A stretch of 64,000 nucleotides of DNA, from contig VCJN01001008.1 of the NCBI GenBank assembly GCA_006384855.1, forward strand, positions 1 to 64,000, given 5' to 3'. The notes under the pieces are model-generated. The model searched no databases and was not told the DNA's origin. It was given only the letters and a program-made list of their open reading frames with translations. The position numbers and the translations under genes were made by a program. Positions 5,099 through 57,096 of the stretch are shown piece by piece (positions within the stretch are counted from its first letter, which is position 1; every line of letters starts with the position of its first letter). This DNA is from Tetraselmis striata. Taxonomy: Eukaryota; Chlorophyta; Chlorodendrophyceae; Chlorodendrales; Chlorodendraceae.

Positions 5099-5104
5099 TG
5101 TTTA

Positions 5105-5277
5105 AAACTAGTTTATGTGGTTTCTCTACCTGTACGAGATAGCCCTGGCGCGGCGCCCGTAGCGCGTGTGTGCGCGCGCACGATTGCGGGGGCCGGTCAG
5201 AGCCACCACCTGCCTTCACGGCGGACCGACCGGTCACTCTCCTTTGCTGTGGCACGCTCCATCGAGCGCACCACAGC
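5105..5277 (+). repeat. Repeat A1 of DIRS-like element 1
   Basis: 173 bp beginning AAACTAGTTTATGTGG and ending GCACCACAGC, apparently identical to A2 at 7,858-8,030. A 5' copy plus an internal 3' copy next to B1 define the split-repeat structure. It is followed directly by a perfect 18-bp palindrome at 5,283-5,300. Confidence 0.9.
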
Positions 5278-5282
5278 AAAGT

Positions 5283-5300
5283 CGCGGCAAATTTGCCGCG
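5283..5300. promoter_or_regulatory. Perfect palindrome next to A1
   Basis: CGCGGCAAATTTGCCGCG is an 18-bp perfect palindrome 5 bp after A1. Copies 2 (minus strand, about 24,107-24,124) and 3 (about 54,226-54,243, one base changed) have it too. It could be a protein-binding site or a hairpin in the element RNA; function unknown. Confidence 0.5.
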
Positions 5301-5535
5301 CAGGGTGCCGGTCTTCCGCCATTGTACCATGTACGGTGAGCGACGCCTTTCGGGGCCCCCCTGGGAGAAACCCGTTAGGGTTTGTGTGGTTAATGTACGC
5401 GCGCCGCTTGCGACGTGCTCACTACTACCCGCGAACGAGCTGCTGATTACTCGAGGAGAGGACGATGCTGCAGCGCTTCCCCATTCAGTGGAACAAGGTC
5501 CAAGACCTTCGACCAGTGTCGACCAACAGTAACCC

Positions 5536-7629
5536 ATGGCTGCCCTTTCCCGTGTGGGCATGGCTCGATCTGTACTGGCCCCTACCCGGCGTAGGTGTCG
5601 CGATGCGCTCCGACTGGGGCGTATGCCGGCGTATGCCCGTCGTCTAGTACAGATTCGAGTACAAAGTGACAGTACACTGCCAGTGGCCAAGCCAGCGCCC
5701 AGTGGCACATGGCTACTCCCACGCCGCTGCACTCCTACTGTGCCGCGCACCGTGGACCCTGACGCCGACGCGGAGAGGGCCAGCAGAGCGACATGGCGCT
5801 CTGCTCGCCCCCCTCGCGACATCCATCGCGCCAATTCATGTACTCCCGACTCCCCCTTTATGAGACATCGCGTCCGTCGTAATCTCGGCAACTGGCAAGC
5901 CGCTGGCGCAAATCGCAGTGTTCTCAACTGGATATCCCGAGGTGTACGCGTTCCTTTCTTGGACGGGCTTGCCCCACCTTCTTTTCATCAGGGGGTGTCA
6001 ATGGGGGGTGCTACTCCTGCTCAACTGGAGTTTATGGACGGTGAATTGGCTCGCTTACTGGCCGTTGGGGCCTGGGAGCGAGGCTACTGCGCAAAATGGG
6101 TGTCCCGGCTGTTCCTGGTTCCTAAGCCTGGACCAAACAAATGGAGGCTCATCATTGACCTCCGCCCCCTGAACCGCTATTGCGAGATGCGCGATCTTTC
6201 GTTTGAGACGCTTTCGCATTTACGCAACCTGGCGCGCCCTGGGGACTACATGTTGCAGATGGACCTGCATGACGGGTTTTACGCGGTTGGAATCGCCCCT
6301 GAGGACAGGGATTTTTTCACTGTCGATTACCGCGGCACTCTGTACCGACTGGCTGGCCTTCCCATGGGCTGGTCTCTGTCCCCCTATTACTTCTGCCAAT
6401 TCACCAACGTCCTCACTAGGGCATTGCGTCGTAACCCGGCTGAAGCATATGGCACACCTATTCCCCGGCGACGATTTGGCCTGCGCATGTTGCCCTACAT
6501 GGACGATTTCTTGTTTCTAGCTCGGACTCAGGCTGAGGCCATCTGGCAACGTGACTACATCGAACGCCACCTCTCGGGCTTTGGTCTGCTGCGCAACCCC
6601 AACAAGGGCGTGTGGGAGCCCACCCAGAAGCTCGTGCACCTGGGGTTAGAAATTGACACATCGGGATCACCTACTCTTCGTGCGCCCGCTGAGAAACTCG
6701 CCAGCATTGCTCGCGCGGCCAAACGCCTAATCCAACGAGCAAAACGCGATCGTCGGTGGTTGCCAGCTCGCGAGTTGGCCGCTCTCGCGAGCAAATGCCA
6801 GTTTCTCTACTTGGCCATTGCCCCTGCCCGTTTCTACCTTCGTGAGCTGCATGATGTGCTCAAGACGCGCGACTCTTGGTCCGGCCGCGTCAAGCTTACC
6901 CGCCAGCTCGAACGCGATCTGCAATGGTGGGTGGGTGTGCCCACCCAACACAACGGCCGTCCCATTAACCGCCCCGTCGAAACCGGATACCTACACGTCG
7001 ACAGTTCGTCGTACGGCTGGGGTGCCGTTTTGAACGAGCACCATGAAGCTCGGGGTTTTTGGTACGACGATGACCGCAATGCGCACATTACCCTGAAAGA
7101 GCTCAAAGCCGTCCGCTTGGCTATTGAGTCCTTCCTCCCTATGCTCCAAAACCGCCACATCCGCTTGCACGAGGATAACCAAGCAGTTGTCGGCGTCCTC
7201 CTTAACATCACCTCTCGCTCTCCACGCCTCATGGCTGAGCTACGCAAAACGTGGTACCTCATGGACACGCACGGCATCACCCTTTCCGTGCGCTACATCC
7301 GTTCTGCGGCGAATATATGGGCTGACCGCCTTAGTCGCGAGGTTGATTGCGACGACTGGCAGTTCAACCCTCGTCGATTCGCCTCGCTCACTGCTAAATG
7401 GGGCGCCTGCACCATCGACCGCTTCGCGACTTCTGAAAACGCCCTCCTGCCCCGCTACAACGCCCGCTGGCGTGACCCGCGGTGCGAGGCCGTCGACGCC
7501 CTGCGCCTCTCCGACGCTGCATGGCGTTGCGAACGTAACTGGTGTAACCCTCCGTGGAACCTCATCGGCGATCTAGTCTCCAAACTTGAGTCCAGCGGTG
7601 CCCCAGCCATCGTCATTGTGCCCTACTAG
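5536..7629 (+). CDS. DIRS-type reverse transcriptase-RNase H-methylase-like polyprotein (C-terminal end lost)
   Basis: 697 codons from the first ATG after an in-frame stop. Residues 1-100 are basic and low-complexity. RT follows: WVSRLFLVPKPG, motif A MDLHDGFYAV (D about 243), GLPMGWSLSPYYF, and the catalytic YMDD at 321-324. RNase H: LHVDSSSYGWGAVL (D489), ELKAVRLA (E522), LHEDNQAV (D547). After it comes IDRFATSEN ... NWCNPPWNLI (NPPW 671-674), the methylase-like region usual in DIRS polyproteins. The element would reverse-transcribe its own RNA. The frame stops at UAG 7,627-7,629, where the other copies read Trp; two further Trp-to-UAG changes follow within 130 bp, so ~65 C-terminal residues are lost. 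No integrase or tyrosine recombinase is present. Confidence 0.9.
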   Translation: MAALSRVGMARSVLAPTRRRCRDALRLGRMPAYARRLVQIRVQSDSTLPVAKPAPSGTWLLPRRCTPTVPRTVDPDADAERASRATWRSARPPRDIHRANSCTPDSPFMRHRVRRNLGNWQAAGANRSVLNWISRGVRVPFLDGLAPPSFHQGVSMGGATPAQLEFMDGELARLLAVGAWERGYCAKWVSRLFLVPKPGPNKWRLIIDLRPLNRYCEMRDLSFETLSHLRNLARPGDYMLQMDLHDGFYAVGIAPEDRDFFTVDYRGTLYRLAGLPMGWSLSPYYFCQFTNVLTRALRRNPAEAYGTPIPRRRFGLRMLPYMDDFLFLARTQAEAIWQRDYIERHLSGFGLLRNPNKGVWEPTQKLVHLGLEIDTSGSPTLRAPAEKLASIARAAKRLIQRAKRDRRWLPARELAALASKCQFLYLAIAPARFYLRELHDVLKTRDSWSGRVKLTRQLERDLQWWVGVPTQHNGRPINRPVETGYLHVDSSSYGWGAVLNEHHEARGFWYDDDRNAHITLKELKAVRLAIESFLPMLQNRHIRLHEDNQAVVGVLLNITSRSPRLMAELRKTWYLMDTHGITLSVRYIRSAANIWADRLSREVDCDDWQFNPRRFASLTAKWGACTIDRFATSENALLPRYNARWRDPRCEAVDALRLSDAAWRCERNWCNPPWNLIGDLVSKLESSGAPAIVIVPY

Positions 7630-7824
7630 CCTGACAAAGCTTAGTACCAACTCCTCTCGGAGATGTGCTCCGACATGTGCTCTTGGAAGCCGCGCCACGA
7701 CCTCTTCATTCCTGGCCGTACCGGCGACCGCCTTCCTGTGGGCGCACCCCGTTAGCATGTCGTCGCCTTCAACATTCCCGCCCGTGACCCCCGCCCGTGG
7801 CCTGCTGCGCCCGGCATTTTCTAG

Positions 7825-8137
7825 TCGGCAAACCAGACGATCCTTGTGAAATGTTTTAAACTAGTTTATGTGGTTTCTCTACCTGTACGAGATAGCCCTG
7901 GCGCGGCGCCCGTAGCGCGTGTGTGCGCGCGCACGATTGCGGGGGCCGGTCAGAGCCACCACCTGCCTTCACGGCGGACCGACCGGTCACTCTCCTTTGC
8001 TGTGGCACGCTCCATCGAGCGCACCACAGCCCGCCCAACCCTCCCTGGCTGTGGGATTGTATGCCTGCAAATTCCTGAATATCACAACCTGTAACCAGAC
8101 CTGGCATTCTTCGGCAAACCAGACGATCCTTGTGAAA
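7825..8137 (+). repeat. B1-A2-B2 terminal array of DIRS-like element 1
   Basis: B1 (7,825-7,851, TCGGCAAACCAGACGATCCT then TGTGAAA), the 6-bp core TGTTTT (7,852-7,857), A2 (7,858-8,030), 80 bp of spacer, and B2 (8,111-8,137, identical to B1). The B1-core-A2 junction is the expected imprint of joined element ends in a circular intermediate. Confidence 0.9.
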
Positions 8138-8822
8138 CGGGTAGTCGTACCTGCCCCCCCCCCCCCCCCCCCCGCCGCCAGTTCGGGAAGTTCCCTCATC
8201 ATATTTCTTCAATTTAAAATACTCGTATACGTCCTCGTATACCTGCGGGTCCGCTGCATATATTTCGGGTCAGGTTATGGCGTCAACACCTGTGGACTTT
8301 ACTGCCTTTATTTTGGGCGGGGTCCCCCCTCCCATCACGGCGCCCTGGATTTTACTGGGAATGGGAAATTTTTCCAGCTATGGCGTCGGGCCCTCCCTCA
8401 CATTGCCTTTTTTGTTGCACATGTATCGCACTGCCGAAATGCTTTGCTCCGCGGGTTGGGGCTTACCCCAACTCGCATTACTCGAATGGGCCGACGCCCA
8501 AACGGGTAGGGCGGACCTTTCGTGGTCAGTGCCGGGTATTTTGATGGCAGTGTTTTAGACGGTGATCCAACAGTGTTGGAAATTCCATTATTGGCCTTCA
8601 ATTAGTCTTGCAGAATGCTTCGGCAATTTGCTTGATGACTATAACGGAGCGTCGCCTACCCAGGGCTTTCCGTAACTGGATTGCTGCCTAAACGGCCGTC
8701 GTAGAGACGCTGCAACGGTTTCACTGGTGCCAGTCCTATCCCGGGGGCGAAAAAATTTCGGGTCGAGTTTATAGTGCGAAGTACTAGCGACTAGCAGTGT
8801 TAATTTTCCCCACAGACATATA
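8138..8822. other. Gene-free stretch with a dispersed repeat at 8,440-8,760
   Basis: After a poly-C tract (about 8,153-8,173) no gene is seen. About 8,440-8,760 recurs, diverged and inverted, at about 31,390-31,705; shared strings include TTTTAGACGGTGATCCAACA and CGTCGTAGAGACGCTGCA. It is likely a fragment of a dispersed non-coding repeat. Unit 2 copy: 36,506-37,192. Confidence 0.55.
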
Positions 8823-11166: not shown

Positions 11167-11480
11167 TTTCCGACCTATCGTACCACATACCAAGTGTTGC
11201 CCACCGATTTTCTGCGGCCCCCGGATGGAGGGGGTGAGGGGGGGGGGGGGGGGTCAAATCCATCAGTGGGATTGTTTGGCCATGAATGCATGTGCCCTTT
11301 GGATAGTATTGCATATATGTATCCCTTATAATATTTGAAGCATGCTTAGCCGCTCCCATGGCATTTGCAGCCATGTAAATGCCCAAACCAGTGATATAAC
11401 TGGTGGTCTAACGAAGTCGGTGGGCAGCGAAAATCAGTGGGCGTTGTCTCCCAAACCACAACATATAATCCTTAACGCCT

Positions 11481-12373: not shown

Positions 12374-12386
12374 GTGAAAATAGGGG

Positions 12387-17500: not shown

Positions 17501-17890
17501 GCCCACCGCGGCCAAAGCCGAGGCCCGAGCAGCTTGGCGTTTGGTAACCGGCGGTGGGTCCACACAATTGGCCGACGCCGGAGCCACGTAATCATGAGGA
17601 GTAGCCCGAACAGATGCATGCGTACGCGCGGGGGCGAACAACTTGTCTAGGTCACCACGCTCCCAATGCGACAGACGGTTGTCACGGTAGTCCGCCACCG
17701 GGTCGGGGGGTAAAAACCGCGGGGAGTCGGTCATGGGCCGCAATATCAACCTGAAGAACAAGAGGTAGGCACTCCACGCAGCATGGGCAGCCTCAGATTG
17801 GCTCGCGCGGCCCTTGAACGAGAGAGCGTAGGTAAGGGTGGCGTCATGGTGGGGTTTGACCAGGGCAACCACGGACTTAGGGCATCCATT
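14530..17890 (-). pseudogene. LINE-1 RT-endonuclease ORF, RT motif C altered, frameshifted end
   Basis: A long frame (14,621-17,872) encodes RT motif A LDAENAFNSFYR, then RQGCVLGLILF, then AFSNDVNLVG where these enzymes have (F/Y)ADD. The first catalytic Asp is Asn (codon 16,592-16,594). The C-terminal half has CSCASC, DHVARC and a PD-(D/E)xK-like endonuclease (RPADVGLFGYGG, VAVDITIAP, ERHKIQKCDEG, RFVPFAVSEFGSL). Near 14,740 a 2-bp deletion versus the copy at 52,909 shifts the last ~70 codons into another frame, ending at 14,530. The product would lack RT activity and its normal C-terminus. Confidence 0.75.
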
Positions 17891-18501
17891 AGCGCAAGTA
17901 GCAGACCGGAAGGATAGGAGGGTCGACTCAAAGAAATCAAGTTACGAGGCGCCGCCGCGGGCACCACGATCGAAACACCAGCGAGCAGCCGGGGGCATAT
18001 CGCACAACCCCCCGCAGTATGTAGCCCACCCCCGGAGCGAGGGAGAAGGACGGAAGCCGGCTGGGCCGCGCCCGCCGCACAAGAACGCAAGTGCCGACCA
18101 AGGCCGGAAGCGTGGAACCACAGGCCGCAGCGCTGGCACGCCGACATCAAATGCCGATCTGCGTCACGAACAGGACATCCGTCGGCCGGCCGGACGGCTA
18201 GACATGCCGGCGAGGAGGTCATGTGGGCCCGCAAGTCATTTACGCGTGGATAGGGTTGAGCACACCCGACGCAATGGAGGGTCGCAGGCTGGCTCGGCCC
18301 AGCACCCTGTGATAGCGGCACCGGGGCTGGCGGGGTCTCGGGAGGAGGGCTCGAGGGCAATGGGGGCATCGGAGTGACGACCAAGGGCCGGTGGTGAGCC
18401 GTGGTTGGCTGCGCTGGCTGGCTGTGGCCTGACGACTCGGAGGGGGTGGAGACCGCGAGGGAAGGCCCAAAACTGCTGCCACCACCGGAACAAGAATCCA
18501 A
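17746..18501 (-). pseudogene. LINE-1 N-terminal zinc-finger region (unit 1)
   Basis: It encodes two C2HC fingers: LHCVGCAQPYPRVNDLRAHM...C and CQRCGLWFHASGLGRHLRSC. Such fingers bind target DNA in R2-like LINEs. In unit 2 the fingers are in one frame with the RT ORF (45,017-46,762). In unit 1 a frameshift around 17,900-18,010 separates them, so the protein is split. Confidence 0.65.
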
Positions 18502-21095: not shown

Positions 21096-21255
21096 TGCTG
21101 TGTTGATTTTCTAATTCTGGGGAACTGCCCTTTTTGTAATTCACACCAGTACCAAGCAGCAGTTCTGGGGAACTGCCTTTTTGTAATTCACACCAGTACA
21201 AGTACGAGTACCAGTTCCAGTACGCGCGGGGTCGCGCGATGTCACTACATACAGG

Positions 21256-24200
21256 TTTCACAAGGAACGTCTGGTTTGCCGAAGAATGCCAGGTCTGGTT
21301 ACAGGTTGTGATATTCAGGAATTTGCAGGCATACAATCCCACAGCCAGGGAGGGTTGGGCGGGCTGTGGTGCGCTCGATGGAGCGTGCCACACAGCAAAG
21401 GAGAGTGACAGGTCGGTCCGCCGTGAAGGCAGGTGGTGGCTCTGACCGGCCCCCGCAATCGTGCGCGCGCACCCACGCGCTACGGGCGCCGCGTCAGGGC
21501 TATCTCGTACAGGTAGAGAAACCACATAAACTAGTTTAGAACATTTCACAAGGAACGTCTGGTTTGCCGACTAGAAAATGCCGGGCGCAGCAGGCCACGG
21601 GCGGGGGTCACGGGCGGGAATGTTGAAGGCGACGGCAGGCCAGCGGGGTGCGCCCACGGGAAGGCGGTCGCCGGTACGGCCAGGAATGAAGAGGTCGTGG
21701 CGCGGCTTCCAAGAGCGCATGTCGGAGCACATTTCCGAGAGGAGCTGGTACCAAGCTTTGTCAGGCCAGTAGGGAACAAGGACGATGGCTGGGGCACCGC
21801 TGGACTCAAGTTTGGAGACTAGATCGCCGATGAGGTTCAACGGAGGGTTACACCAGTTACGTTCGCAACGCCATGCAGCGTCGGAGAGGCGCAGGGCGTC
21901 GACGGCCTCGCACCGCGGGTCACGCCAACGGGCGTTGTAGCGGGGTAGGAGGGCGTTTTCAGAAGTCGCGAAGCGGTCGATGGTGCAGGCGCCCCATTTA
22001 GCAGTGAGCGAGGCGAATCGACGAGGGTTGAACTGCCAGTCGTCGCAATCAACCTCGCGACTAAGGCGGTCAGCCCATATATTCGCCGCAGAACGGATGT
22101 AGCGCACGGAAAGGGTGATGCCGTGCGTGTCCATGAGGTACCACGTTTTGCGTAGCTCAGCCATGAGGCGTGGAGAGCGAGAGGTGAGGTTAGTGAGGAC
22201 GCCGAAAACCGCTTGGTTATCCTCGTGCAAGCGGATGTGGCGGTTTTGGAGCATGGGGAGGAAGGACTCAATAGCCAAGCGGACGGCTTTGAGCTCTTTC
22301 ATGGTAATGTGCGCATTGCGGTCATCGTCGTACCAAAAACCCCGAGCTTCATGGTGCTCGTTCAAAACGGCACCCCAGCCGTACGACGAACTGTCGACGT
22401 GTAGGTATCCGGTTTCGACGGGGCGGTTAATGGGACGGCCGTTGTGTTGGGTGGGCACACCCACCCACCATTGCAGATCGCGTTCGAGCTGGCGGGTAAG
22501 CTTGACGCGGCCGGACCAAGAGTCGCGCGTCTTGAGCACATCATGCAGCTCACGAAGGTAGAAATGGGCAGGGGCAATAGCCAAGTAGAGAAACTGGCAT
22601 TTACCCGCGAGAGCGGCCAACTCGCGAGCTGGCAACCACCGACGATCGCGTTTTGCTCGTTGGATTAGGCCTTTGGCCGCGCGAGCAATGCTGGCGAGTT
22701 TCTCAACGGGCGCACGAAGAGTAGGCGACCCGATGTGTCAACTTTCTAACCCCAGGTGCACGAGCTTCTGGGTGGGCTCCCACACGCCCTTGTTGGGGTT
22801 GCGCAGCAGACCAAAGCCCGAGAGGTGGCGTTCGATGTAGTCACGTTGCCAGATGGCCTCAGCCTGAGTCCGAGCTAGAAACAGAAAATCGTCCATGTAG
22901 GGCAACATGCGCAGGCCAAATCGTCGCCGGGGAATAGGTGTGCCGTCTGCTTCAGCCGGGTTACGACGCAATGCCCTAGTGAGGACGTTGGTGAATTGGC
23001 AGAAGTAATAGGGAGACAGAGACCAGCCCATGGGAAGGCCGGCCAGACGGTACAGAGTGCCGCGGTAATCGACAGTGAAAAAATCCCTGTCCTCAGGGGC
23101 GATTCCAACCGCGTAAAACCCGTCCTGCAGGTCCATCTGCAACATGTAGTCCCCATGGCGCGCCAGGTTGCGTAAATGCGAAAGCGTCTCAAACGAAAGA
23201 TCGCGCGTCTCGCAATAGCGGTTCAGGGGGCGAAGGTCAATGATGAGCCTCCATTTGTTTGTTCCAGGCTTAGGAACCATGAACAGCCGGGACACCCATT
23301 TTGCGCAGTAGCCTCGCTCCCAGGCCCCAACGGCCAGGAAGCGAGCCAATTCACCGTCCATAAACTCCAGTTGAACAGGAGTAGCATCCCCCATTGACAC
23401 CCCCTGATGAAAAGAAGGTGGGGCAAGCCCGTCCAAGAAAGGAACGCGTACACCTCGAGATATCCAGTTGAGAACACTGCGATTTGCGCCAGCGGCTTGC
23501 CAGTTGCCGAGATTACGACGGACGCGATGTCTCATAAAGGGGGAGTCGGGAGTACAGGAATTGGCGCGATGGATGTCGCGAGGGGGGCGAGCAGAGCGCC
23601 ATGTCGCTCTGCTGGCCCTCTCCGCGTCGGCGTCAGGGTCCACGGTGCGCGGCACAGTAGGAGTGCCGCGGCGTGGGAGTAGCCATGTGCCACTGGGCGC
23701 TGGCTTGGCCACTGGCAGTGTACTGTCACTTTGTACTCGAATCTGTACTAGACGACGGGCATACGCCGGCATACGCCCCAGTCGGAGGGCATCGCGACAC
23801 CTACGCCGGGTAGGGGCCAGTATAGATCGAGCCATGCCCACACGGGAAAGGGCAGCCAGGGGTTACTGTTGGTCGACACTGGTCGAAGATCTTGGACCTT
23901 GTTCCACTGAATGGGGAAGCGCTGCAGCATCGTCCTCTCCTCGCGTTGGGCGAGTAATCAGCAGCTCGTTCGCGGGTAGTAGTTAGCACGTCGCAAGCGG
24001 CGCGCGTCCATTAACCACACAAACCCTAACGGGTTTCTCCCAGGGGGGGGGGCCCGAAAGGCGTCGCTCACCGTACATGGTACGATGGCGGAAGACCGGC
24101 ACCCTGCGCGGCAAATTTGCCGCGACTTTGCTGTGGTGCGCTCGATGGAGCGTGCCACAGCAAAGGAGAGTGACCGGTCGGTCCGCCGTGAAGGCAGGTG

Positions 24201-24302
24201 GTGGCTCTGACCGGCCCCCGCAATCGTGCGCGCGCACCCACGCGCTACGGGCGCCGCGTCAGGGCTATCTCGTACAGGTAGAGAAACCACATAAACTAGT
24301 TT
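21256..24302 (-). mobile_element. DIRS-like element 2, minus strand (unit 1)
   Basis: 3,047 bp. In plus coordinates: B2 21,256-21,282, A2 21,363-21,537, core AGAACA 21,538-21,543, B1 21,544-21,570, A1 24,130-24,302. The element-side core AGAACA (TGTTCT on the element strand) is at 24,303-24,308 and the target-side core TACAGG at 21,250-21,255. Unit 2 has the empty site TACAGG at 52,286-52,291. The flank of unit 1 carries an extra TACA next to the core. Confidence 0.9.
21571..23841 (-). pseudogene. DIRS-type RT-RNase H-methylase-like ORF, one frameshift
   Basis: It encodes the same polyprotein as 5,536-7,629. A single inserted base near 22,739 breaks the frame within the RT, after the YMDD region (LVHLGLE), giving ORFs 22,738-23,841 and 21,571-22,635. 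This copy keeps the complete C-terminus (PYWPDKAWYQLL ... PWPAAPGIF), which shows where the family protein ends and that no recombinase follows. The start is an ATG downstream of 23,841. Confidence 0.9.
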
Positions 24303-24899
24303 AGAACATACTAAAAACGGCGACGATGATGATGACGCGCCGCCAGGCGGGGCGTGTTGTACGGGCACATGTACGGGTACAGGTCCGCACGCGCGCGGCC
24401 GCCCCGCGGCGCACCAGGCGGAATGCTCTACGGGCCGGGGCGCCCCCATGGACTGGCGCCCGGACATGCTGCGCCACCAGCAGCCCGGCGGGCACCACGA
24501 GCGCAGAAGGGGCTCGCCGTGCACGTACCAAGCACGGCGAGATTGGCGAGGGGGTCGCCGGGCCAAAGGGGCGGCTGGCAGCGCACCAGGGAGCCGCAGG
24601 AGAAAACGGGCGCGCTCAGAAAACCAGGGGCGGGCGCGGTCGGTCGCAGGTCGGTCGCGGGCGCGAAGCTCCAAGAAGAAACGCCGCAGCGGGAAGAGGT
24701 CTCCAAGGACGCCCAGCAAGAAAGGGTGGGGGGGGGGGGGGGGGGGGGGGGGTCGGTCCGCGAGATGCCAGGCGGGTGGGGGGCAGGCGCAAGGCGCGGC
24801 GGCCGGTCGGATCGGATCGCATGAATAAATCTACCCATAAAAGCAGACCTGAAAGATCGACACTACAAGCCGGCTGAAAGCGGGCCGCATCCCGCACGA
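24303..24899. other. Gene-free, G-rich stretch (unit 1)
   Basis: A long G run (about 24,727-24,752) lies in DNA matching 52,292-52,879. Several long overlapping ORFs exist on both strands but show only low-complexity Arg/Gly/Pro composition. No gene supported. Confidence 0.5.
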
Positions 24900-25794: not shown

Positions 25795-26160
25795 GGTACC
25801 GGTAGGGGCACCTCCACAAATCCCCGGCGCGAAGCGCCGCTTAGTACCAATAACCCTGGATCCATAAATGAGGTACAGCGAGTAGGTACGAGTACTCATG
25901 CGCGCGGCATGCGCACAAGCACTCGTACTGGCACCCGTTGTACCCGCCGTAGAATGTTACATGTACATAATCATGCCGTACAGGTACTCGTACAGTATTA
26001 TGCCAAAGGTAGTTCAGGACAAGTTATAACTCATTATAACTGTCACCCTACATTTCTGTTCTTGCCGGCTTCCGACCGCCTCCGACAGGCTCCTGCCTTA
26101 CAAAACTCTGTAACCAAAGCCAAAGCGCTTTTTCGGCATACCACGCAGCCCTCTCCTTGA
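25795..26160. other. Gene-free stretch with empty DIRS site
   Basis: No gene. Rich in GTAC strings (for example CCGTACAGGTACTCGTACAG). The core TGTTCT at 26,057-26,062 is the unoccupied counterpart of DIRS-like element 3. Confidence 0.6.
26057..26062. other. Empty site of DIRS-like element 3
   Basis: Unit 1 reads TTC-TGTTCT-TGCCGGC. Unit 2 reads TTC-TGTTCT-[element]-TGTTCT-TGCCGGC. Here the target core equals the element core. Confidence 0.9.
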
Positions 26161-30895: not shown

Positions 30896-32148
30896 TCATA
30901 AATACAGGTACTAGTACTGATGCTACCTGTGAATTTGTTATCTCGTAGCGCCTCTTCCTGAGCTTCTGCCGCTCTCCTTCCCTGTAGTAATATAATTACA
31001 TGAGCTAGCAGCAGAAGGCGATATTCATGTAGTAATTCACTGCTGCAGCACGAGTATGGACATACCGAACGGTACCAGAAATCATTCTCAGGCCAGTACA
31101 GGGCGCGAGCTTATTGAGCGCTGGCGGATATGTTGCTACTGATCTCCGAATACGGGTAGCTCCACTGCTTGTACCTGTATATCCGAGCGGCGACTTTGTC
31201 ATTACCATGTACACGTACTGTCTCCGCAGTGCTTTGTAATTCACACTGGTAGCGCGCTACTGCTGATGTGGATTGCCTGTATGTGGGACCTACGGACCAC
31301 AACAGGCGGGGTACTCTGTCATGAGCCCATTAGCATCGTTACGGGCGGGTCTTTATATTTCCTGCTGGTTATTTTTTCGCCCCGACCTGAGACAAGACTG
31401 GGAACCGTGAAAATCTTGCAGCGTCTCTACGACGTCCATTTAGGCAGCGGTCCAGGTACGGAAAGCCTAGTGTAGGCGACGCTCTGCTTTAGTCTTCAAG
31501 GAAATTATTGTGGAAGTCAGTGACGGAATTCTAACACTGTTGGATCACCGTCTAAAACAATGCCATAAAATACCGGCACTGACCACGAAATGTCCGCCCT
31601 ACTAGTTTGGGCATCAGCACATTCGAGGAATGCGAGTTGGGGCAAGCCCCATCCCGTGGAGCAAAGCATTTGGGTTCGCCCCGGGACATCGGCCGAAGCC
31701 GACCCAGCACTTGCCCTCTTGATGTGCCAACTGCAGTCGTAGGTCTGGCATAGCCCTTAGACCATAACCATATACCACCAACAATATGTATTGCATGCTC
31801 CTCAAATTATTAAAAAATTGACTATCAAATTGAATATATATATATCGGAACTGCAAATGTGCTCTTTGAGGATGATGTGTCCGCCCGCTACTTTCACTGG
31901 GCATTGCCGCTGGCGGATGAGCTCGTAAATGGTCAGATGTAGTCATCTAGACGTTTACAGTACATTAGCTATGTTGTACTGCGCACGACCCCCGAGGTCG
32001 GCGCACGGACTAAGGCCTGCCGGCCCGCACCAGCACTACGACCTGAGGGATCCACCCTCGGGCACCGGCACTCTCTGCTTTGCGCTCGCCTCAACCGGCT
32101 CGCGCAAGCAGTCTCGACTCTAGCAGTCGAGCAGAGTGTCAGCTTACT

Positions 32149-33190
32149 CTATGCCGACTCGGACCCGAGCCTCAGCCTCCCGAGACGCTACACCTTCCCC
32201 ACCCCGCGACAGCAGGATGCCCCCTCGCCATGTACCGGAAGACGCCTTAGTGGACGACGCCCCGGGCGGCGCCACGGGGCATCTGTCGCGGAATTGGAAA
32301 AACGCCTGACGGCCCAAGCGGAAGCCCTGGAGAAGCGGCTGGCCGGGCAGTTTGAGGCTGCTACGGCTGCCTTGCTCGCTCGACTCGCCCCCCCCACTAA
32401 CCCGCTTCCTCCCGAAGGCACCCAGCCAGCCAACCCCGCGGGCACGCCTGCGCCCGAGGGTGGTGAGCAAGGAGCACGAGAGCCCCTTCCTGCTGAGCTA
32501 GACGCACCCGACGACGAGCTCGAGTACGTCGACTTTGCCTACTACGGCCGAGTCATCCCCCCCGGTCTGGAGCGCCCCCCGCGCGACGTCGACGAGCCCC
32601 GCCTGTGGACCCTGACCGACGACACCACCCGCGCCCTCGCGGAGAAGCGGAGTCAGACAGCGTACGACGAATACATGCACCTAGGCTGCTATGCCTTCTT
32701 CAGTAGCTGCGCCAACGAGGCGATGCGCGGCGCTTTGGAGTCGCTTTCGACCGAGTCTGCTACGCCGGCAAGCAAGGCTGCGTCCCTTGCCGAGCTCCGC
32801 GCCTGCTACCGCACCCACTTGGCGACGGAGGAGGCCACCCGTTCCCGGTTGGGCTACCTCCAGCTCGCCAAGAATGGACCAACGGCTACAGAGGCGGACC
32901 GCGTTTTCGCCGAGCTCGCCCACGCAAAGTTCTGCACCCCACGGCGCATCGCCGTGTCCGGGCAACTCGACCAACTCCGCCGAGCGTTCGACGACAAGAC
33001 CCTCGAGATCAGCCTTTCCGCAGCGGGCAACGCCCGTGCCGCGGCCGCGTTCGCCAAGGCTACCCCCGACAAGCCCGCCCCCACAGAGTCCGCCGAGAGG
33101 CGCAAGCAACGCGAGCAAGCCGCTGCAGCGCGGAAGGCCGCAGCGACAGCCACAGCGTCCGACAAGGCCAAGGCCAAGGTCACCAAGTGA
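32149..33190 (+). CDS. DIRS Gag-like protein
   Basis: The main frame (no ATG; open from about 32,280) encodes ~300 residues ending at UGA 33,188-33,190. An Ala/Gln coiled-coil start (EKRLTAQAEALEKRL, LAGQFEAATAALLARL), a Pro-rich linker, YVDFAYYGRVIPPGLERP, then a helical domain (YMHLGCYAFFSSCANEAM, LAELRACYRTHL) and a Lys/Ala tail. An upstream ATG frame (32,149 to about 32,285: HVPEDALVDDAPGG) probably joined by a frameshift. The position 5' of the RT and the helical composition fit Gag of DIRS elements; no named domain recognised. Confidence 0.55.
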
Positions 33191-33207
33191 CGGTGTGGCC
33201 CGCCGCG

Positions 33208-34324
33208 CCGACTCATGTACGCCTACCTCCCTCTACATGCGACACCGCGTGCGGAGAAGATGGCGCGACTGGGAGAGCATCGGCGCGAGCGGACAAGTCT
33301 TGAGTTGGATCCGCCAAGGGGTCGGGATACGCTTCAAGAACGGGCGACGCCCTCGCCCCTACAACCACGGCGTCTCTATGCGCGACGCCACTCAGGCACA
33401 ACTGGACTTCATGGCTACAGAACTGCCCCGTTTCGAGGCGATTGGCGCGTGGGAGCGAGGACACTGCAACCAGTGGGTATCCAGAATGTTTCTAGTCCCC
33501 AAGCCCGGCACCAACAAGTGGCGCCCCATCATCGACCTGTCGCCCTCGGCGAGATGGTGGCCGACGCGCGCCGCGGCCTGGCCATCCAGCAAGAGCGTCT
33601 TGCGGCGGAAGACGTCCGCGTCGCCCTGCCTGCGCCCGTTGCGGCTGACATCCTGGACACCGCGATTGGATTTCGGCGGACATTGGTGTGGGAACCCGCT
33701 AATATTGCGGACATCCGCGCTTTCAGAGCCGCGCTCGCGACGATTACGGCGTACGTCTTCGTGTGCCGCGCGGAGTCCGGCATTAGCTGCGAGACCGCTG
33801 ATTTAGTGGTCGACCGACCGTCCGGAAGCATTCTGCTGTACGTCCGCAAACAGAAAAGCGACCAGCGTACGAGGGTTTCCGCTAAGCCCCTGATAAATCT
33901 GCCCATCGCCGCCGTTCCGGACTTCGCCGACCTGCTGGACTGGTACACCATCAGTCGCGACGCCTACTGCCGCCGTTTCTACGGCGCCAGCCCGCCGCCC
34001 AAGTTCTGGAGCGTCTCCCCGCTGGAGTCTTCCGCCACTTGGTCGGTTTCAGCCACTCTTACCGAGTGGTTACGGGAAGCCTACATGGCGGCAGGCGCCC
34101 GACCTCCCACCGGTTTCAAGTGGACATCGCACAGTTTACGCAAGGGCGCCGCTTCCGCAGCAAGCTGCATCGGCGTCCCCTTGCCGGCCATCAAACACAT
34201 GGGCGATTGGTCGAAGAACAGCGACGTGGTCACAGGGAAGTACATCGACCCGACCATGCGCCGAATTAATGAAACCTCGGCGAAATGTTTCGTTTATTAT
34301 TACTTTTTTATTAGGATTGCATAA
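33208..34324 (+). pseudogene. Internal-deletion fusion: start of DIRS RT joined to tyrosine recombinase
   Basis: From 33,208 one frame encodes the RT start seen in the other DIRS copies (MRHRV, HGVSM, AIGAWERGHCNQWVSRMFLV, PKPGTNKWRPIIDL). At about 33,540, before RT motif A, it jumps to a recombinase in another frame that is open to 34,324. Recombinase features: FVCRAESG (probable first Arg), HSLRKGAAS (34,130-34,147), GDWSKNSDVV and KYIDPT (Tyr 34,241-34,243). RT palm, RNase H and methylase-like region are deleted. The recombinase part looks catalytically complete and could act in trans if expressed. Confidence 0.8.
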
Positions 34325-35938: not shown

Positions 35939-37191
35939 TTATCGGGCGGAGGCGACACGGGCGGAATCGCACAATTCTTCACCCGTGCCTCACCAAATAT
36001 CAAACGACTCAGCCCATATCCCACCCAAAGCCCATAAGGGCCCATGTGTGGTGGCTTAGAGGTTCTCGTTCACGTCGTGTGCACTGCTAGTGGCGAAATC
36101 GGGGGTGTGATGGGGGTGATCCTTGTACGGATACATGAGACACCGTACGCGCGCTATATCGCCGATTTCAATCACCGTGCGGGTGCGCCGTGGTGTCGGT
36201 GCAAGCAATGGGGCAGTGGACAGTGGCGATGGGTGGCGGAGTCCCCCCCAAAGCCCGCCGCCCGTGTCCGACCTTTAATTCGATAATTAGGGGGGTATTT
36301 GCGTGTACAGCGTGCTGTGCAGCGTAGCTGTACAATCCTGTAATGCGGCTGTTACGAGGCTGTAGTGATGTACAGCATGGCGGCATGGTAGACATGGCAT
36401 AGTCGCTACAGGTACATAGAAAATAGTGCTCCCATGTCCGTGTCCTGCGGGTGCCCGTCTCGGAAACGGGAACTGGTACCGTGACATTTTCATGGGGTAC
36501 GGGTATTCGTACCTGCGGCACCCCCCCCCCCCCCCCCCCCCCCCGCCGCCAGTTCGGGAAGTTCCCTCATCATATTTCTTCAATTTCAATACTCTATACG
36601 TCCTCGTATACCTGCGGGTCCGCTGCATATATTTCGGGTCAGGTTATTGCGTCAACACCTGAGGACTTTCCTGCCTTTATTTTGGGCGGGGTCCCCCCTC
36701 CCATCACGGCGCCCTGGATTTTACTGGGAATGGGAAATTTTTCCAGCTATGGCGTCGGGCCCTCCCTCACATTGCCTTTTTTGTTGCACATGTATCGCAC
36801 TCCCGAAATGCTTTGCTCCGCGGGTTGGGGCTTACCCCAACTCGCATTACTCGAATGGGCCGACGCCCAAACGGGTAGGGCGGACCTTTCGTGGTCAGTG
36901 CCGGGTATTTTGATGGCAGTGTTTTAGACGGTGATCCAACAGTGTTGGAAATTCCATTATTGGCCTTCAATTAGTCTTGCAGAATGCTTCGGCAATTTGC
37001 TTGATGACTATAACGGAGCGTCGCCTACCCAGGGCTTTCCGTAACTGGATTGCTGCCTAAACGGCCGTCGTAGAGACGCTGCAACGGTTTCACTGGTGCC
37101 AGTCCTATCCCGGGGGCGAAAAAATTTCGGGTCGAGTTTATAGTGCGAAGTACTAGCGACTAGCAGTGTTAATTTTCCCCACAGACATATA
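35939..37191. other. Gene-free shared DNA with empty sites of MITE 1 and DIRS 1
   Basis: Counterpart of 4,044-8,822 of unit 1 without the MITE (site about 36,170) and without DIRS-like element 1 (core CGGGTA at 36,500-36,505, in CATGGGGTA-CGGGTA-TTCGTACCTG). A poly-C tract follows at 36,522. Confidence 0.85.
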
Positions 37192-40744: not shown

Positions 40745-40757
40745 GTGAAAATAGGGG

Positions 40758-49200: not shown

Positions 49201-50048
49201 AAGGCGGGGTATTGGCTCCGCAATTGTCTTCCGTCCGAAGTGGAGGCCTTTGCGGAGGCGGTGGACGCCACCATCCTCGCGGCGGTCGAACGGGTGCTAG
49301 GGGTCTCTTTTGATCCCTCCACGTACGGCACTGCAACCAATCCGGTGGTCACCGATTTCTTGGCGGAGCTTTTGCACGACCCCGACCCCATGGCAGCGGA
49401 GGTGGCTACCTTGAGCGAGGATACAGTGGCCAGGGCGCGCAGCAGGCTTCACCTCCCCACTCGGTTGAAGGGAGCTGGCATCCGCCGCATGGCTACCGTT
49501 CGTGATGCCGCCTTCATCGGCTGCATGAATGCCATCCTCCCAAAGTTCCTGACTAGGAACTCCGGCACCAACACCCCCACCCCTGGTTTCTTCGACCCAC
49601 AGCTCGGGTCCGTACTTGGCCGAGGCAGCTTCAACGCAACTTCTTCCGCCCGCCAGTATGACCACTTCCTCAACGATGCTCATGGGTCGGACAGCTACGC
49701 CGCGGAGATGCGCGAGGCGTGGGGCCGCCTCCAAGCGGCTACTGCTGGCCATCTTGGCGACGCAGATGCGCGCCAGATGGAGCGGGAAGTGGAGGCCGCG
49801 TCGGGCTCGCAAAAGGAGCTGACGGCATTTCTAGACCAGGCCAACAACTCTCGGCTTCGAAATGAGGTGTGCGCTCTCCCTGCCACATGTAGGGAACGGA
49901 TCTTGTTCAACCAGCTCGACGCGGCGTCAGGCATGTGGACAGTGGCCATCCCCACCGCGCGGGCAGTCATGACTCCGCATGAGCTGCGGGAGGTCGCTGC
50001 CGGGTACTTCCTTCTGCCTAGCCCGTGCTTGGCCCCGGTGGTTGGGAG

Positions 50049-51236
50049 CAGGGTTGGGCATAAGTGACCCCTGGGTCGCTTATGTCATAACATAAGTACT
50101 TATGACATAAGTACATAATTATGTTATGATCCGGCATAAGCGGAATTATGCCTTATGTTATGACATAATTCTTGAATAATTATGCTCATAACATAATTAT
50201 GCCATAATTTATGGCATAAGAAGTGAGGAAGTGGCCGAAATACACCGCCACCGCGACCTTTGTATGTCAGCTCGTACTTGGGGAACAGCTTGGAACCGTT
50301 ACGATAGGGCCAGCTCAGCCATCGGCTCAGCCCACGTCTTGGCGTTCAGCTCCTCCACAGTCGCACAGAAGGGCCCCTCTCTCGGAAACTTCGGGTGCAG
50401 CTGGTTGGTTTTCGAGCCGAAACTCAAAATACAGCATATTGCCTCTCCAGCGGACGAGCCATCCACAATCTCGCAGTCGACAGCCTCCCGGGAAGAGTTG
50501 TCGACGAATAAGCCCCAGTAAGGCGACTTCCTGCGGGTCGCGTGCGATCCCCATGACGCCTTAAGATTCTTCTTCACTAGCTCAATCCGTGCGCGCGCGC
50601 GGCGAATGCCCTCAGCAGTTCGTGTGTCCGAAGCGCCGCGTTCAGCCTTATCGGAAGCCGGGAAGTTCGAATAATCGTCGGCTGTTGGGGCGGTGGTGGT
50701 GGCAGCAGCCGCAACGGGTGGTGCGGCGGCGGGTGTCTGCTCACTAGCGGCGGGTGAGGAGCCGCCATCGCCCGTACCGGAGCAAATCTCGCTGCGAACC
50801 GCAGTGTGGCGCGACAGTACGGACCTCCAAGCGCATGTAGACATGGCGGAGCCCGTCAACGTTGCCTCGTCCTTGCCCGTTGGGGGTGTTGGTGTGGTCA
50901 TGGCGGGCGCCTGTGCGCCTGCTGGCAAGGTGCTGGATAGCGATCCGGCGGGAAGATTGCCTCTGCGACGGTCGTCTGTGTGCCGGCATCACGAGTATAT
51001 TACTTATAATTTCGTACTATCGCCTCGTACGGTAACACCTCGTACATAGGTACTGTATCTACGAGCAGTACGCAGTCTGCGGGGGAGCCAACTGCGGGTT
51101 TTATCGGCACTTATGCCGGACACTTATGCCTGGGACTTATGCCGATTTTCGATGGGACTTCCTCATAAGCATAACCACTTATGTTATGTCATAACATAAG
51201 TTTCCCGGAATAACTTATGCCTTATGCCCAACCCTG
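50049..51236. mobile_element. Non-autonomous hAT-like element inside LINE-2
   Basis: 1,188 bp with 16-bp TIRs CAGGGTTGGGCATAAG ... CTTATGCCCAACCCTG and a perfect 8-bp target duplication GTTGGGAG (50,041-50,048 and 51,237-51,244). Unit 1 (minus, about 19,525) has the uninterrupted site. An 8-bp TSD and CAGGG ends are diagnostic of hAT. About 170 bp at the left end and 110 bp at the right are crowded with CATAAG/CTTATG and ATAACATAAT strings, the subterminal repeats that hAT transposases bind. The element is too short for a full transposase. Confidence 0.9.
50299..50928 (-). CDS. N-terminal fragment of a hAT transposase (possible BED finger)
   Basis: A minus-strand ORF of 209 codons. The first ATG is not certain. 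An Ala/Thr-rich start is followed by RRKSPYWGLFVDNSSREAVD and GEAICCILSFGSKTNQL. The spacing W..F ... C-C resembles a BED finger start, which binds TIR DNA in hAT transposases, but the second Cys/His pair is not clear. The dimerisation and catalytic parts are missing. Could also be a truncated repressor. Confidence 0.4.
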   Translation of the reverse strand: MPAGAQAPAMTTPTPPTGKDEATLTGSAMSTCAWRSVLSRHTAVRSEICSGTGDGGSSPAASEQTPAAAPPVAAAATTTAPTADDYSNFPASDKAERGASDTRTAEGIRRARARIELVKKNLKASWGSHATRRKSPYWGLFVDNSSREAVDCEIVDGSSAGEAICCILSFGSKTNQLHPKFPREGPFCATVEELNAKTWAEPMAELALS

Positions 51237-52285: not shown

Positions 52286-52291
52286 TACAGG
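52286..52291. other. Empty site of DIRS-like element 2
   Basis: Unit 2 reads GATGTCAC-TACAGG-TACTAAAAGCGG. Unit 1 has the element between TACAGG and AGAACA followed by TACTAAAAACGG. Confidence 0.9.
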
Positions 52292-53776: not shown

Positions 53777-54047
53777 GGTACCGGTAGGGGAACCTCCACA
53801 AATCCCCGGCGCGAAGCGCCGCTTAGTACCAATAACCCTGGATCCATAAATGAGGTACAGCGAGTAGGTACGAGTACTCATGCGCGCGGCATGCGCACAA
53901 GCACTCGTACTGGCACCCGTTGTACCCGCCGTAGAATGTTACCTGTACATAATCCTGCCGTACAGGTACTCGTACAGTATTATGCCAAAGGTAGTTCAGG
54001 ACGACAAGTTATAACTCATTATAACTGTCACCCTACAGTTCTGTTCT

Positions 54048-57000
54048 AAACTAGTTTATGTGGTTTCTCTACCTGTACGAGATAGCCGTGGCGCGGCGCC
54101 CGTAGCGCGTGTGTGCGCGCGCACGATTGCGGGGGCCGGTCAGAGCCACCACTTGCCTTCACGGCGGACCGACCGGTCACTCTCCTTTGCTGTGGCACGC
54201 TCCATCGAGCGCACCACAGCAAAGTCGCGGCAATTTTGCCGCGCAGGGTGCCGGTCTTCCGCCATCGTACCATGTACGGTGAGCGACGCCTTTCGGGGCC
54301 CCCCGTAGGAGAAACCCGTTAGGGTTTGTGTGGTTAATGTACGCGCGCCGCTTGCGACGTGCTAACTACTACCCGCGAACGAGCTGCTGATTACTCGCCC
54401 AACGCGAGGAGAGGACGAAGCTGCAGCGCTTCCCCATTCAGTGGAACAAGGTCCAAGACCTTCGACCAGTGTCGACCAACAGTAACCCCTGGCTGCCCTT
54501 TCCCGTGTGGCCATGGCTCGATCTGTACTCGCCCCTACCCGGCGTAGGTGTCGCGATGCGCTCCGACTGGGGCGTATGCCGGCGTATGCCCGTCGTCTAG
54601 TACAGATTCGAGTACAAAGTGACAGTACACTGCCAGTGGCCAAGCCAGCGCCCAGTGGCACATGGCTACTCCCACGCCGCGGCACTCCTACTGTGCCGCG
54701 CACCGTGGACCCTGACGCCGACGCGGAGAGGGCCAGCAGAGCGACAGGGCGCTCTGCTCGCCCCCCTCGCGACATCCATCGCGCCAATTCCTGTACTCCC
54801 GACTCCCCCTTTCTGAGACATCGCGTCCATCGTAATCTCGGCAACTGGCAAGCCGCTGGCGCGAATCGCAGTGTTCTCAACTGGATATCCCGAGGTGTAC
54901 GCGTTCCTTTCTTGGACGGGCTTGCCCCACCTTCTTTTCATCAGGGGGTGTCAATGGGGGATGCTACTCCTGCTCAACTGGAGTTTATGGACGGTGAATT
55001 GGCTCGCTTCCTGGCCGTTGGGGCCTGGGAGCGAGGCTACTGCGCAAAATGGGTGTCCCGGCTGTTCCTGATTCCTAAGCCTGGAACAAACAAATGGAGG
55101 CTCATCATTGACCTTCGCCCCCTGAACCGCTATTGCGAGACGCGCGATCTTTCGTTTGAGACGCTTTCGCATTTACGCAACCTGGCGCGCCCTGGGGACT
55201 ACATGTTGCAGATGGACCTGCAGGACGGGTTTTATGCGGTTGGAATCGCCCCTGAGGACAGGGATTTTTTCACTGTCGATTACCGCGGCACTCTGTACCG
55301 ATTGGCTGGCCTTCCCATGGGCTGGTCTCTGTCCCCCTATTACTTCTGCCAATTCACCAACGTCCTCACTAGGGCATTGCGTCGTAACCCGGCTGAAGCA
55401 GACGGCACACCTATTCCCCGGCGACGATTTGGCCTGCGCATGTTGCCCTACATGGACGATTTCCTGTTTCTGGCTCGGACTCAGGCTGAGGCCATCTGGC
55501 AACGTGACTACATCGAACGCCACCTCTCGGGCTTTGGTCTGCTGCGCAACCCCAACAAGGGCGTGTGGGAGCCCACCCAGAAGCTCGTGCACCTGGGGTT
55601 AGAAATTGACACATCGGGGTCACCTACTCTTCGTGCGCCCGTTGAGAAACTCGCCAGCATTGCTCGCGCGGCCAAACGCCTAATCCAACGAGCAAAACGC
55701 GATCGTCGGTGGTTGCCAGCTCGCGAGTTGGCCGCTCTCGCGGGCAAATGCCAGTTTCTCTACTTGGCCATTGCCCCTGCCCGTTTCTACCTTCGTGAGC
55801 TGCATGATGTGCTCAAGACGCGCGACTCTTGGTCCGGCCGCGTCAAGCTTACCCGCCAGCTCGAACGCGATCTGCAATGGTGGGTGGGTGTGCCCACCCA
55901 ACACAACGGCCGTCCCATTAACCGCCCCGTCGAAACCGGATACCTACACGTCGACAGTTCGTCGTACGGCTGGGGTGCCGTTTTGAACGAGCACCATGAA
56001 GCTCGGGTTTTTTGGTACGACGATGACCGCAATGCGCACATTACCCTGAAAGAGCTCAAAGCCGTCCGCTTGGCTATTGAGTCCTTCCTCCCCATGCTCC
56101 AAAACCGCCACATCCGCTTGCACGAGGATAACCAAGCAGTTGTCGGCGTCCTCACTAACCTCACCTCTCGCTCTCCACGCCTCATGGCTGAGCTACGCAA
56201 AACGTGGTACCTCATGGACACGCACGGCATCACCCTTTCCGTGCGCTACATCCGTTCTGCGGCGAATATCTGGGCTGACAGCCTTAGTCGCGAGGTTGAT
56301 TGCGACGACTGGCAGTTCAACCCTCGTCGATTCGCCTCGCTCACTGCTAAATGGGGCGCCTGCACCATCGACCGCTTCGCGACTTCTGAAAACGCCCCCC
56401 TGCCCCGCTACAACGCCCGCTGGCGTGACCCGCGGTGCGAGGCCGTCGACGCCCTGCGCCTCTCCGACGCTGCATGGCGTTGCGAACGTAACTGGTGTAA
56501 CCCTCCGTGGAACCTCATCGGCGATCTAGTCTCCAAACTTGAGTCCAGCGGTGCCCCAGCCATCGTCATTGTTCCCTACTGGCCTGACAAAGCTTGGTAC
56601 CAGCTCCTCTCGGAGATGTGATCCGACATGCGCTCTTGGAAGCCGCGCCACGACCTCTTCATTCCTGGCCGTACCGGCGACCGCCTTCCTGTGGGCGCAC
56701 CCCGCTGGCCTGTCGTCGCCTTCAACATTCCCGCCCGTGACCCCCGCCCGTGGCCTGCTGCGCCCGGCATTTTCTAGTCGGCAAACCAGACGATCCTTGT
56801 GAAATGTTCTAAACTAGTTTATGTGGTTTCTCTACCTGTACGAGATAGGCCTGGCGCGGCGCCCGTAGCGCGTGTGTGCGCGCGCACGATTGCGGGGGCC
56901 GGTCAGAGCCACCACCTGCCTTCACGGCGGACCGACCGGTCACTCTCCTTTGCTGTGGCACGCTCCATCGAGCGCACCACAGCCCGCCCAACCCTCCCTG

Positions 57001-57090
57001 GCTGTGGGATTGTATGCCTGCAAATTCCTGAATATCACAACCTGTAACCAGACCTGGCATTCTTCGGCATACCAGACGATCCTTGTGAAA
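54048..57090 (+). mobile_element. DIRS-like element 3 (unit 2)
   Basis: 3,043 bp: A1 54,048-54,220, B1 56,778-56,804, core TGTTCT 56,805-56,810, A2 56,811-56,983, B2 57,064-57,090 (one base differs from B1). Cores TGTTCT at 54,042-54,047 and 57,091-57,096. The empty site is in unit 1 at 26,057-26,062. Confidence 0.9.
54513..56621 (+). CDS. DIRS-type RT-RNase H-methylase-like polyprotein, nearly complete
   Basis: 702 codons from ATG 54,513. The upstream ATG used in copy 1 is CTG here. All catalytic motifs are present: MDLQDGFYAV, YMDDFLF, LHVDSSSYGWGAVL, ELKAVRLA, LHEDNQAV, NWCNPPWNLI. It ends at UGA (56,619-56,621) after WYQLLSEM, where copy 2 reads Cys and continues ~50 residues. This is the least damaged copy. 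Role as for 5,536-7,629. Confidence 0.9.
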   Translation: MARSVLAPTRRRCRDALRLGRMPAYARRLVQIRVQSDSTLPVAKPAPSGTWLLPRRGTPTVPRTVDPDADAERASRATGRSARPPRDIHRANSCTPDSPFLRHRVHRNLGNWQAAGANRSVLNWISRGVRVPFLDGLAPPSFHQGVSMGDATPAQLEFMDGELARFLAVGAWERGYCAKWVSRLFLIPKPGTNKWRLIIDLRPLNRYCETRDLSFETLSHLRNLARPGDYMLQMDLQDGFYAVGIAPEDRDFFTVDYRGTLYRLAGLPMGWSLSPYYFCQFTNVLTRALRRNPAEADGTPIPRRRFGLRMLPYMDDFLFLARTQAEAIWQRDYIERHLSGFGLLRNPNKGVWEPTQKLVHLGLEIDTSGSPTLRAPVEKLASIARAAKRLIQRAKRDRRWLPARELAALAGKCQFLYLAIAPARFYLRELHDVLKTRDSWSGRVKLTRQLERDLQWWVGVPTQHNGRPINRPVETGYLHVDSSSYGWGAVLNEHHEARVFWYDDDRNAHITLKELKAVRLAIESFLPMLQNRHIRLHEDNQAVVGVLTNLTSRSPRLMAELRKTWYLMDTHGITLSVRYIRSAANIWADSLSREVDCDDWQFNPRRFASLTAKWGACTIDRFATSENAPLPRYNARWRDPRCEAVDALRLSDAAWRCERNWCNPPWNLIGDLVSKLESSGAPAIVIVPYWPDKAWYQLLSEM

Positions 57091-57096
57091 TGTTCT

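Follow-up and report, generated by a model that had tools for sequence, protein, structure and literature searches.

Integration in the DIRS order of retrotransposons is described, in the parts of the literature accessible to us, in the form of a model. For DIRS1-like relatives, integration is described as starting from a circle and as leaving no target duplication (PMC3266345, PMC4157794), and in the available part of the DIRS1-like model a junction of 3 bp recombines with a genomic stretch identical to it (PMC3266345). Chlamydomonas and its relatives are reported to carry PAT-like DIRS elements (PMC8226300). The related Ngaro elements of Cafeteria burkhardae are presented with the structure A1, open reading frames, B1A2B2, with isolated AB repeats and with a tyrosine recombinase (YR) encoded inside the element (PMC8547959); Ngaro is described as devoid of a methyltransferase domain (PMC3266345). 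Here we analyse alpha, a PAT/DIRS-like element present in three copies in 64,000 nucleotides of the green alga Tetraselmis striata (contig VCJN01001008.1, positions 1 to 64,000, hereafter the window), together with two further families of the same genome, beta and gamma. In the copies read, insertions of all three families follow one polar rule over a 6-bp core.

Such a footprint is known from bacteria. SE and Tn554-related elements have a 6-bp spacer and leave the circle core at one fixed end and the target core at the other, which for SE the available text reads as the exchange of one specific strand (PMC10214605, PMC5991714). Coupling sequences of Tn916, CTnDOT and SXT, as far as the accessible accounts go, form heteroduplex spacers to which both strands contribute. 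Insertions of this second type show either polarity.

Results

The closest matches to proteins of the window are Tetstr1 gene models, at up to 98% identity. The window appears to carry two diverged duplication units, and for each of its three alpha copies the corresponding site of the opposite unit is unoccupied. All three copies are about 3.03 kb long and have the order A1...B1-core-A2...B2. Copy 1 occupies 5105..8137 on the forward strand, with A1 from 5105, the end of B1 at 7851, A2 from 7858 and the end of B2 at 8137. Its left core TGTTTA (5099..5104) differs by one base from its own internal B1-A2 core TGTTTT (7852..7857), and its right core CGGGTA (8138..8143) is the target core, found again on the forward strand of the empty site (36500..36505). 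Copy 2 lies on the reverse strand (21256..24302), where A1 runs downward from 24302 and B2 ends at 21256. Read on that strand, its left core (24303..24308) and internal core (21538..21543) are both TGTTCT and its right core is the target core CCTGTA (21250..21255), which also stands at the empty site (52286..52291). The flanks differ here by a 4-bp indel, the occupied site reading CCTGTA TGTA GTGACATC and the empty one CCTGTA GTGACATC. Copy 3 (54048..57090, forward strand) has TGTTCT as left core (54042..54047), as internal core (56805..56810) and as right core (57091..57096), and its empty site has TGTTCT as well (26057..26062, forward strand); target and circle core are the same, so that this insertion is uninformative. 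The circle core means here the hexamer expected at the B-core-A junction of a putative circular intermediate. An earlier sequence-only reading of the window had described the same DIRS-like layout, which we class as PAT-type, with the same cores and matching empty sites, and we recovered its coordinates and re-read its hexamers identically; the 4-bp flank indel of copy 2 is absent from it. It had also proposed that the 5' side of an insertion inherits the circle core while the 3' side keeps the target core, with no target duplication and over a 6-bp core that need not match.

This rule held in the other genomic copies. The assembly used for genome-wide counts has 2903 contigs, among them the window as C800, and a total of 224 Mb; counts refer to the copies read, a subset of those in the genome, and protein searches of the whole genome scored the best candidates only. 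The alpha table holds 69 unique insertions after exclusion of two duplicates and of the composite C1267; one duplicate and three right ends without B2 were excluded for gamma, and two left ends of beta were not parsed by the script. The alpha B-N6-A pattern has 151 exact matches in the assembly versus 0 in a reversed control and is therefore not a product of chance. In 46 of the 51 readable left ends of alpha, the left core is identical to the internal core. Four of the five exceptions combine TGTTCT on the left with an odd internal core, and the fifth is window copy 1. TGTTCT is the left core in 48/51, and all 51 are at most one base away from TGTTCT or TGTTTT. The left core is similarly constant in beta, with TGATCT in 20/20 parsed ends and visible in both unparsed ends too, and in gamma, with TGGTCA in 10/10. 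Right ends match the circle core of their own family in 1/66 cases in alpha, 0/19 in beta and 0/48 in gamma. The single alpha case is window copy 3, which is also the only one of the 49 alpha copies with both ends read in which right and internal core agree (1/49). Target duplications of at least 4 bp are absent from these 49 copies (0/49), so that both the absence of duplication and the freedom of the core, proposed from three copies, extend to the genome copies read.

Two copies (C1663 and C1795) have TGTTTT as left and internal core, while C1060 has TGTTCT on the left and TGTTTT inside. A separate TGTTTT lineage was considered, since identity of left and internal core fits a core copied with the element, and was rejected because nearest-neighbour clustering is partial and C1060 is mismatched. 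At L053 and at C1267 (153522 and 153809), B2 is followed by one more A-B unit; such composites would result if a junction recombined with an internal site.

The polarity of insertion is uniform. In 69/69 informative insertions with both ends read (48 alpha, 11 beta, 10 gamma), the left core is that of the circle and the right core that of the target, and the reverse was never found; if both polarities were equally frequent, the chance of a single one throughout 69 insertions would be 3.4e-21. When a tyrosine recombinase swaps both strands and the overlap is mismatched, each junction is left as heteroduplex, from which replication should yield both polarities. A lone breakpoint therefore suggests that a single strand contributes, and that alpha inserts by the exchange of one DNA strand.

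The target sequences provide independent support for an overlap of 6 bp, because alpha targets form a dyad, GWWH-N6-WWNC, that is centred on the core, with spacing 6 being the best in 471/500 bootstraps. In the left arm of alpha targets, position -4 is G or A in 42/51 (G in 25/51), -2 is T or A in 50/51 and -1 is never G; in the right arm, +2 is A or T in 54/66 and +4 is C in 31/66 and A in 15/66. The strongest sequence constraint lies on the left, at the proposed sense-strand cut site. The first core base (c1) is a pyrimidine in 64/66 alpha, 19/19 beta and 46/48 gamma targets, and beyond this pyrimidine no homology between the cores of circle and target is needed. In gamma the two outer positions shift together, with T at -4 in 10/10 and A at +4 in 23/48, where alpha favours G and C. 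The dyad test was ambiguous for gamma (spacing 6 best in 171/500 bootstraps) because TATA is itself palindromic. At the third core base (c3), T is found in 30/66 alpha targets (C in 15/66) and in 22/48 gamma targets, though the respective circle bases are T and G. The enrichment of T, G and T at c1-c3 of alpha targets looked like annealing to the circle, and homology at these bases was considered as a trace of swapped strands; the idea was dropped because gamma targets favour T at c3 despite the G of their circle and beta targets favour C.

The sequence-only reading had called the window footprint the one expected for tyrosine-recombinase strand exchange. The 6-bp overlap of this interpretation is backed by the dyad, whereas the single polarity departs from what two-strand exchange over a mismatched overlap should give, and alpha itself shows RT-, RNase H- and Dam-like domains only, with neither a tyrosine recombinase nor gag.

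Beyond the window, empty sites were searched with 20 joined flanks and 40 candidates scored per search; repeats flooded the results, and 16 flanks were searched again, in one search with a shortened right flank for L069. Five more insertions have empty copies (L034, L047, L055, L058 and L064), and at base level nothing is lost or gained where the flanks of all five meet. For 4/5 of them the core of at least one empty copy is exactly the right core. In the fifth, L064, both empty copies read differ from the right core by one base, and one of them also has a 1-base flank indel. Matches across the junction of L033 reached merely 77-79% and were not counted, and for the remaining 14/20 flank pairs there was no empty site among the candidates scored. 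The L055 target (e.g. C2023, C1764 and C1039) is a tandem repeat of ~335 bp with many copies, within which alpha is inserted.

The coding content of alpha was read from copy 3, where a stop-to-stop pol frame of 711 amino acids (54486..56621, forward strand) matches the reverse transcriptase (RT) domain RVT_1 (PF00078, 3.7e-17) and RT_RNaseH (PF17917, 4.3e-06) and holds no recombinase domain. Relative to copy 3, the frame is broken by two TAG codons in copy 1 and by one TGA in copy 2. Matches to a Dam-like domain (PF05869) in the fragment of copy 2 (0.002) and in the predicted protein P0001 (0.007) are weak and under the curated cut-off. There is no stop in 38/63 of the best alpha genome matches and in 56/58 of the best beta YR matches; alpha and beta look young. 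No Pfam match to a recombinase was found in the pol frame, and nothing in 10 other copy 3 frames scanned (longest 191 amino acids). Among the 40 loci read, none has a YR inside alpha (0/40); beta or gamma YR matches in 5 loci were always outside the element. A longer alpha version holding a YR was therefore rejected, as A1 also lies 2744-2814 bases before B1 in 26/40 copies. Outliers in this distance are L031 (1701) and the composite L053 (3067). A1 was not found in 12/40: L040, L042, L054 and L066 are cut by contig ends, L038, L050, L052, L059, L062 and L070 miss part of the 5' end and are otherwise alpha, and L032 and L065 are discussed below. With its split direct repeats, RT and RNase H and with no YR found, alpha is a non-autonomous relative of the PAT-group DIRS retrotransposons, and since it shows neither YR nor gag, the recombinase must come in trans.

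Two YR families were found, and of these beta is the closer to alpha in its recombination site. It is represented by P0133, one open frame of 876 amino acids with YR domains that ends at the B1-core-A2 site; A1 begins 293 bases upstream of the first codon of the protein, and the A1...B1-core-A2...B2 repeats give a length of ~3.2 kb. The beta junction reads GGCAAAACCAGACTCAACTTTGAAA-TGATCT-AAACTAGTTTATGGGGTTTC. No RT was seen in beta: the PF00078 tag is present in 0/120 relatives listed, and the middle of the frame, read via the gene model P0244, has none. Its N-terminus is similar to that of P0129 (26% over 189 amino acids, E 5e-11), which we read as gag-like. P0129 is a metagenomic protein from a 134-kb contig, with a frame of 1488 amino acids whose long middle part matches nothing in Pfam and which ends in a recombinase, and is possibly a relative outside this genome. 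In the first 20 bases of A, beta is identical to alpha at 19/20 positions and gamma at 7/20. By log-odds, the left arms of beta targets are alpha-like in 18/20, and TAT at -4..-2 occurs in 2/51 alpha, 0/20 beta and 10/10 gamma targets. Next to the 151 exact sites of alpha type there are 820 of beta type and 1203 of the shared form GAAA-N6-AAACTAGTTTATG. Because alpha and beta have the recombination site and the choice of the left arm in common and their gene contents, as read, are complementary, they resemble the two halves of a PAT/DIRS-like retrotransposon that has been split. At three places, L012 (C2868), C602 and L063 (C781), an alpha and a beta copy of opposite orientation are no more than ~2 kb apart.

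Gamma (P0064, 115 matches) has RT, YR and split direct repeats with the core TGGTCA and is an autonomous PAT-group DIRS retrotransposon whose length we estimate at 4.87 kb. Between its YR and Cre there is weak sequence similarity (best E 0.002); its gag-like frame has no Pfam match and is labelled from position alone. A deleted gamma copy lies in the window (31930..34262, forward strand), with the core TGGTCA, A1 from 31936, a putative gag frame and the start of the RT joined to the tyrosine recombinase, which is 93% identical over 249 amino acids; the 3' end with its repeats is missing.

Further features of the window are a frame of 1106 amino acids on the reverse strand (14621-17941), whose weak RVT_1 match (1.3e-05, under the curated cut-off) possibly marks another RT element and to which only shorter frames correspond in the other unit, and two long forward frames of 544 and 550 amino acids (46780-50067) without Pfam match at E 0.01. 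ARAGORN gives a tRNA-His-like match with the anticodon atg on the reverse strand (35174-35259). No Rfam family reached its gathering score anywhere in the window.

Discussion

We propose that alpha is a non-autonomous PAT/DIRS-like element that is inserted by a tyrosine recombinase acting in trans, most likely that of beta, through the exchange of one strand, and we assign this explanation as a whole a probability of roughly 0.56. Reverse transcription would produce a circle whose B-core-A junction copies the internal B1-A2 site including its core. The dyad, GWWH-N6-WWNC in the target and GAAA-TGWTCT-AAAC in the circle, would be bound by a tyrosine recombinase acting in trans, for which the gag-YR family beta is the most likely source. 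The sense strand might then be cut 5' of the 6-bp core, so that the circle core becomes joined to the left flank of the target and B to the target core. This exchange would be confined to the sense strand, and either replication or the loss of its partner strand would then make the junction permanent. The expected outcome is a circle core on the left and a target core on the right, without duplication, without a requirement for homology and never in reverse.

Several observations weigh against this explanation. With regard to the strand, mismatch repair with a fixed bias, or loss of a strand, after two-strand exchange would give the same junctions. The left core TGTTTA of window copy 1 may, compared with its internal TGTTTT, be either a mutation or the remnant of a target base, and the alpha junction has no unusual attC-like hairpin (z -0.14 and -0.26). 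In L032 and L065 alpha is confined to the last 0.4-0.5 kb (B1-core-A2-B2) with non-alpha sequence upstream; these loci are either 3' fragments or another element using the end of alpha. Beta was read in pieces, and its lack of RT, as far as seen, is deduced from its size, open frame and gene models. Its N-terminal part has no Pfam match, so that the term gag-like has no Pfam support, and is no more than weakly similar to the gamma frame (E 0.076). In beta targets c3 is C in 12/19, compared with 15/66 in alpha, and +4 is C in 6/19 and A in 8/19, between alpha and gamma. Outside the end of B and the first 20 bases of A, the repeats of alpha and beta resemble each other no more closely (165/310 columns) than those of alpha and gamma (174/307). 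Finally, 232 of the 1203 shared-form sites are neither exact alpha nor exact beta sites, and a third family with RT and YR could be located there.

Biased repair is the main rival to one-strand exchange. An ordinary, Tn916-like exchange of two strands over 6 bp, whose heteroduplex is always repaired or segregated toward one strand, ends in the same final junctions and needs neither homology nor duplication. The bias would however have to produce 69/69 in three families, and, save for one base in window copy 1, no mixture of circle and target bases is seen in the left cores. We consider this course of events unlikely, while still a serious contender. Within one-strand exchange, a folded single-stranded substrate as in integrons was rejected, as the alpha junction lacks an unusual hairpin and the gamma values (z -2.25 and -2.30) are alike on both strands. 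Without a hairpin at the alpha junction, a double-stranded circle with one strand exchanged is an equally good guess.

Alpha might also be mobilised by gamma, which possesses both RT and YR, or by an unseen family rather than by beta. The sites of neither type and the preferences of beta at c3 and +4, which are unlike those of alpha, speak for such a donor. Against gamma stand its A end (7/20) and its target motif (TATH in 10/10), both unlike those of alpha, and overall we regard a source other than beta as rather improbable. The proposal that beta provides the recombinase can be extended to a two-component YR retrotransposon of mutually dependent alpha (RT-RNase H) and beta (gag-YR), in which the RT of alpha would serve beta in return and both would use one B-core-A site and an exchange of the sense strand only, as thought for the bacterial SE and Tn554 elements. 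We offer this extension tentatively, with the odds somewhat against it. Alternatively, beta could be a DNA transposon of the Crypton kind that relies on the YR it encodes, and alpha an RT element that borrows the site of beta, with no mutual dependence. Beta does have a YR, no RT that we could see and an N-terminus without Pfam match to gag, but its A1...B1-core-A2...B2 arrangement is a retrotransposon feature, its N-terminus resembles the putatively gag-like one of P0129, and its left core equals the internal core, as templated circle formation predicts. A Crypton-like nature of beta thus appears quite improbable to us. Very improbable is a linear cDNA joined to a break, with TGTTCT as the mere left end of the element and no recombinase core: the near-invariance of the left core (48/51 TGTTCT) and the lack of an own recombinase in alpha would suit it, but the precise empty sites with nothing lost or gained, the target dyad centred on the 6 bp, the same rule in two YR-encoding families and an internal B-core-A site that is needless for an end-joined element all contradict it.

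Compared with the described systems, alpha is most similar in its anatomy to the PAT group (PAT, TOC, kangaroo), with which it shares the A1-B1-A2-B2 split direct repeats and RT-RNase H, and to whose methyltransferase-type domain its weak Dam-like match may correspond; unlike these elements it has neither gag nor YR. With the DIRS order as a whole it shares integration without target duplication. It differs from the DIRS1-like model by a core of 6 bp in which no match is required beyond the pyrimidine at the first base. Ngaro has the same arrangement of repeats and differs from alpha by its internal YR, and the accessible part of its description contains no polar 6-bp footprint (PMC8547959). 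At the junction, alpha resembles SE, for which three integrations are described in the available text (PMC10214605, PMC5991714), yet it is not classed as SE. SE and Tn554 are DNA elements of bacteria that carry helper genes along with two recombinases and involve no reverse transcription, and the Pfam matches in the families analysed, as far as read, are confined to RT-, RNase H-, Dam-like and YR-type domains, with nothing of the intA-tfp-intB-srap or tnpABC sets. Our literature search, which largely lacked subscription papers, found no report of polarity in DIRS elements or of a split YR retrotransposon. Among long terminal repeat retrotransposons, parasitism of the BARE1/BARE2 type is known, in which an element lacking a function is served in trans by another one. 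Alpha and beta differ from this pair, as they lack complementary functions, with RT on alpha and the gag-like part and YR on beta.

Dozens of insertions that arose independently in this genome, several of them with an empty site for comparison, fix the length of the overlap (6 bp), the position of the cut, the target motif and the polarity of the strands, and the strand question becomes directly testable. Freedom from core homology, combined with no more than a weak AT-rich preference, also makes such a recombinase interesting as a tool for insertion. If alpha and beta are interdependent, retrotransposition in T. striata would be split between two selfish elements, one contributing the polymerase and the other the recombinase and probably the capsid, similar to a segmented genome.

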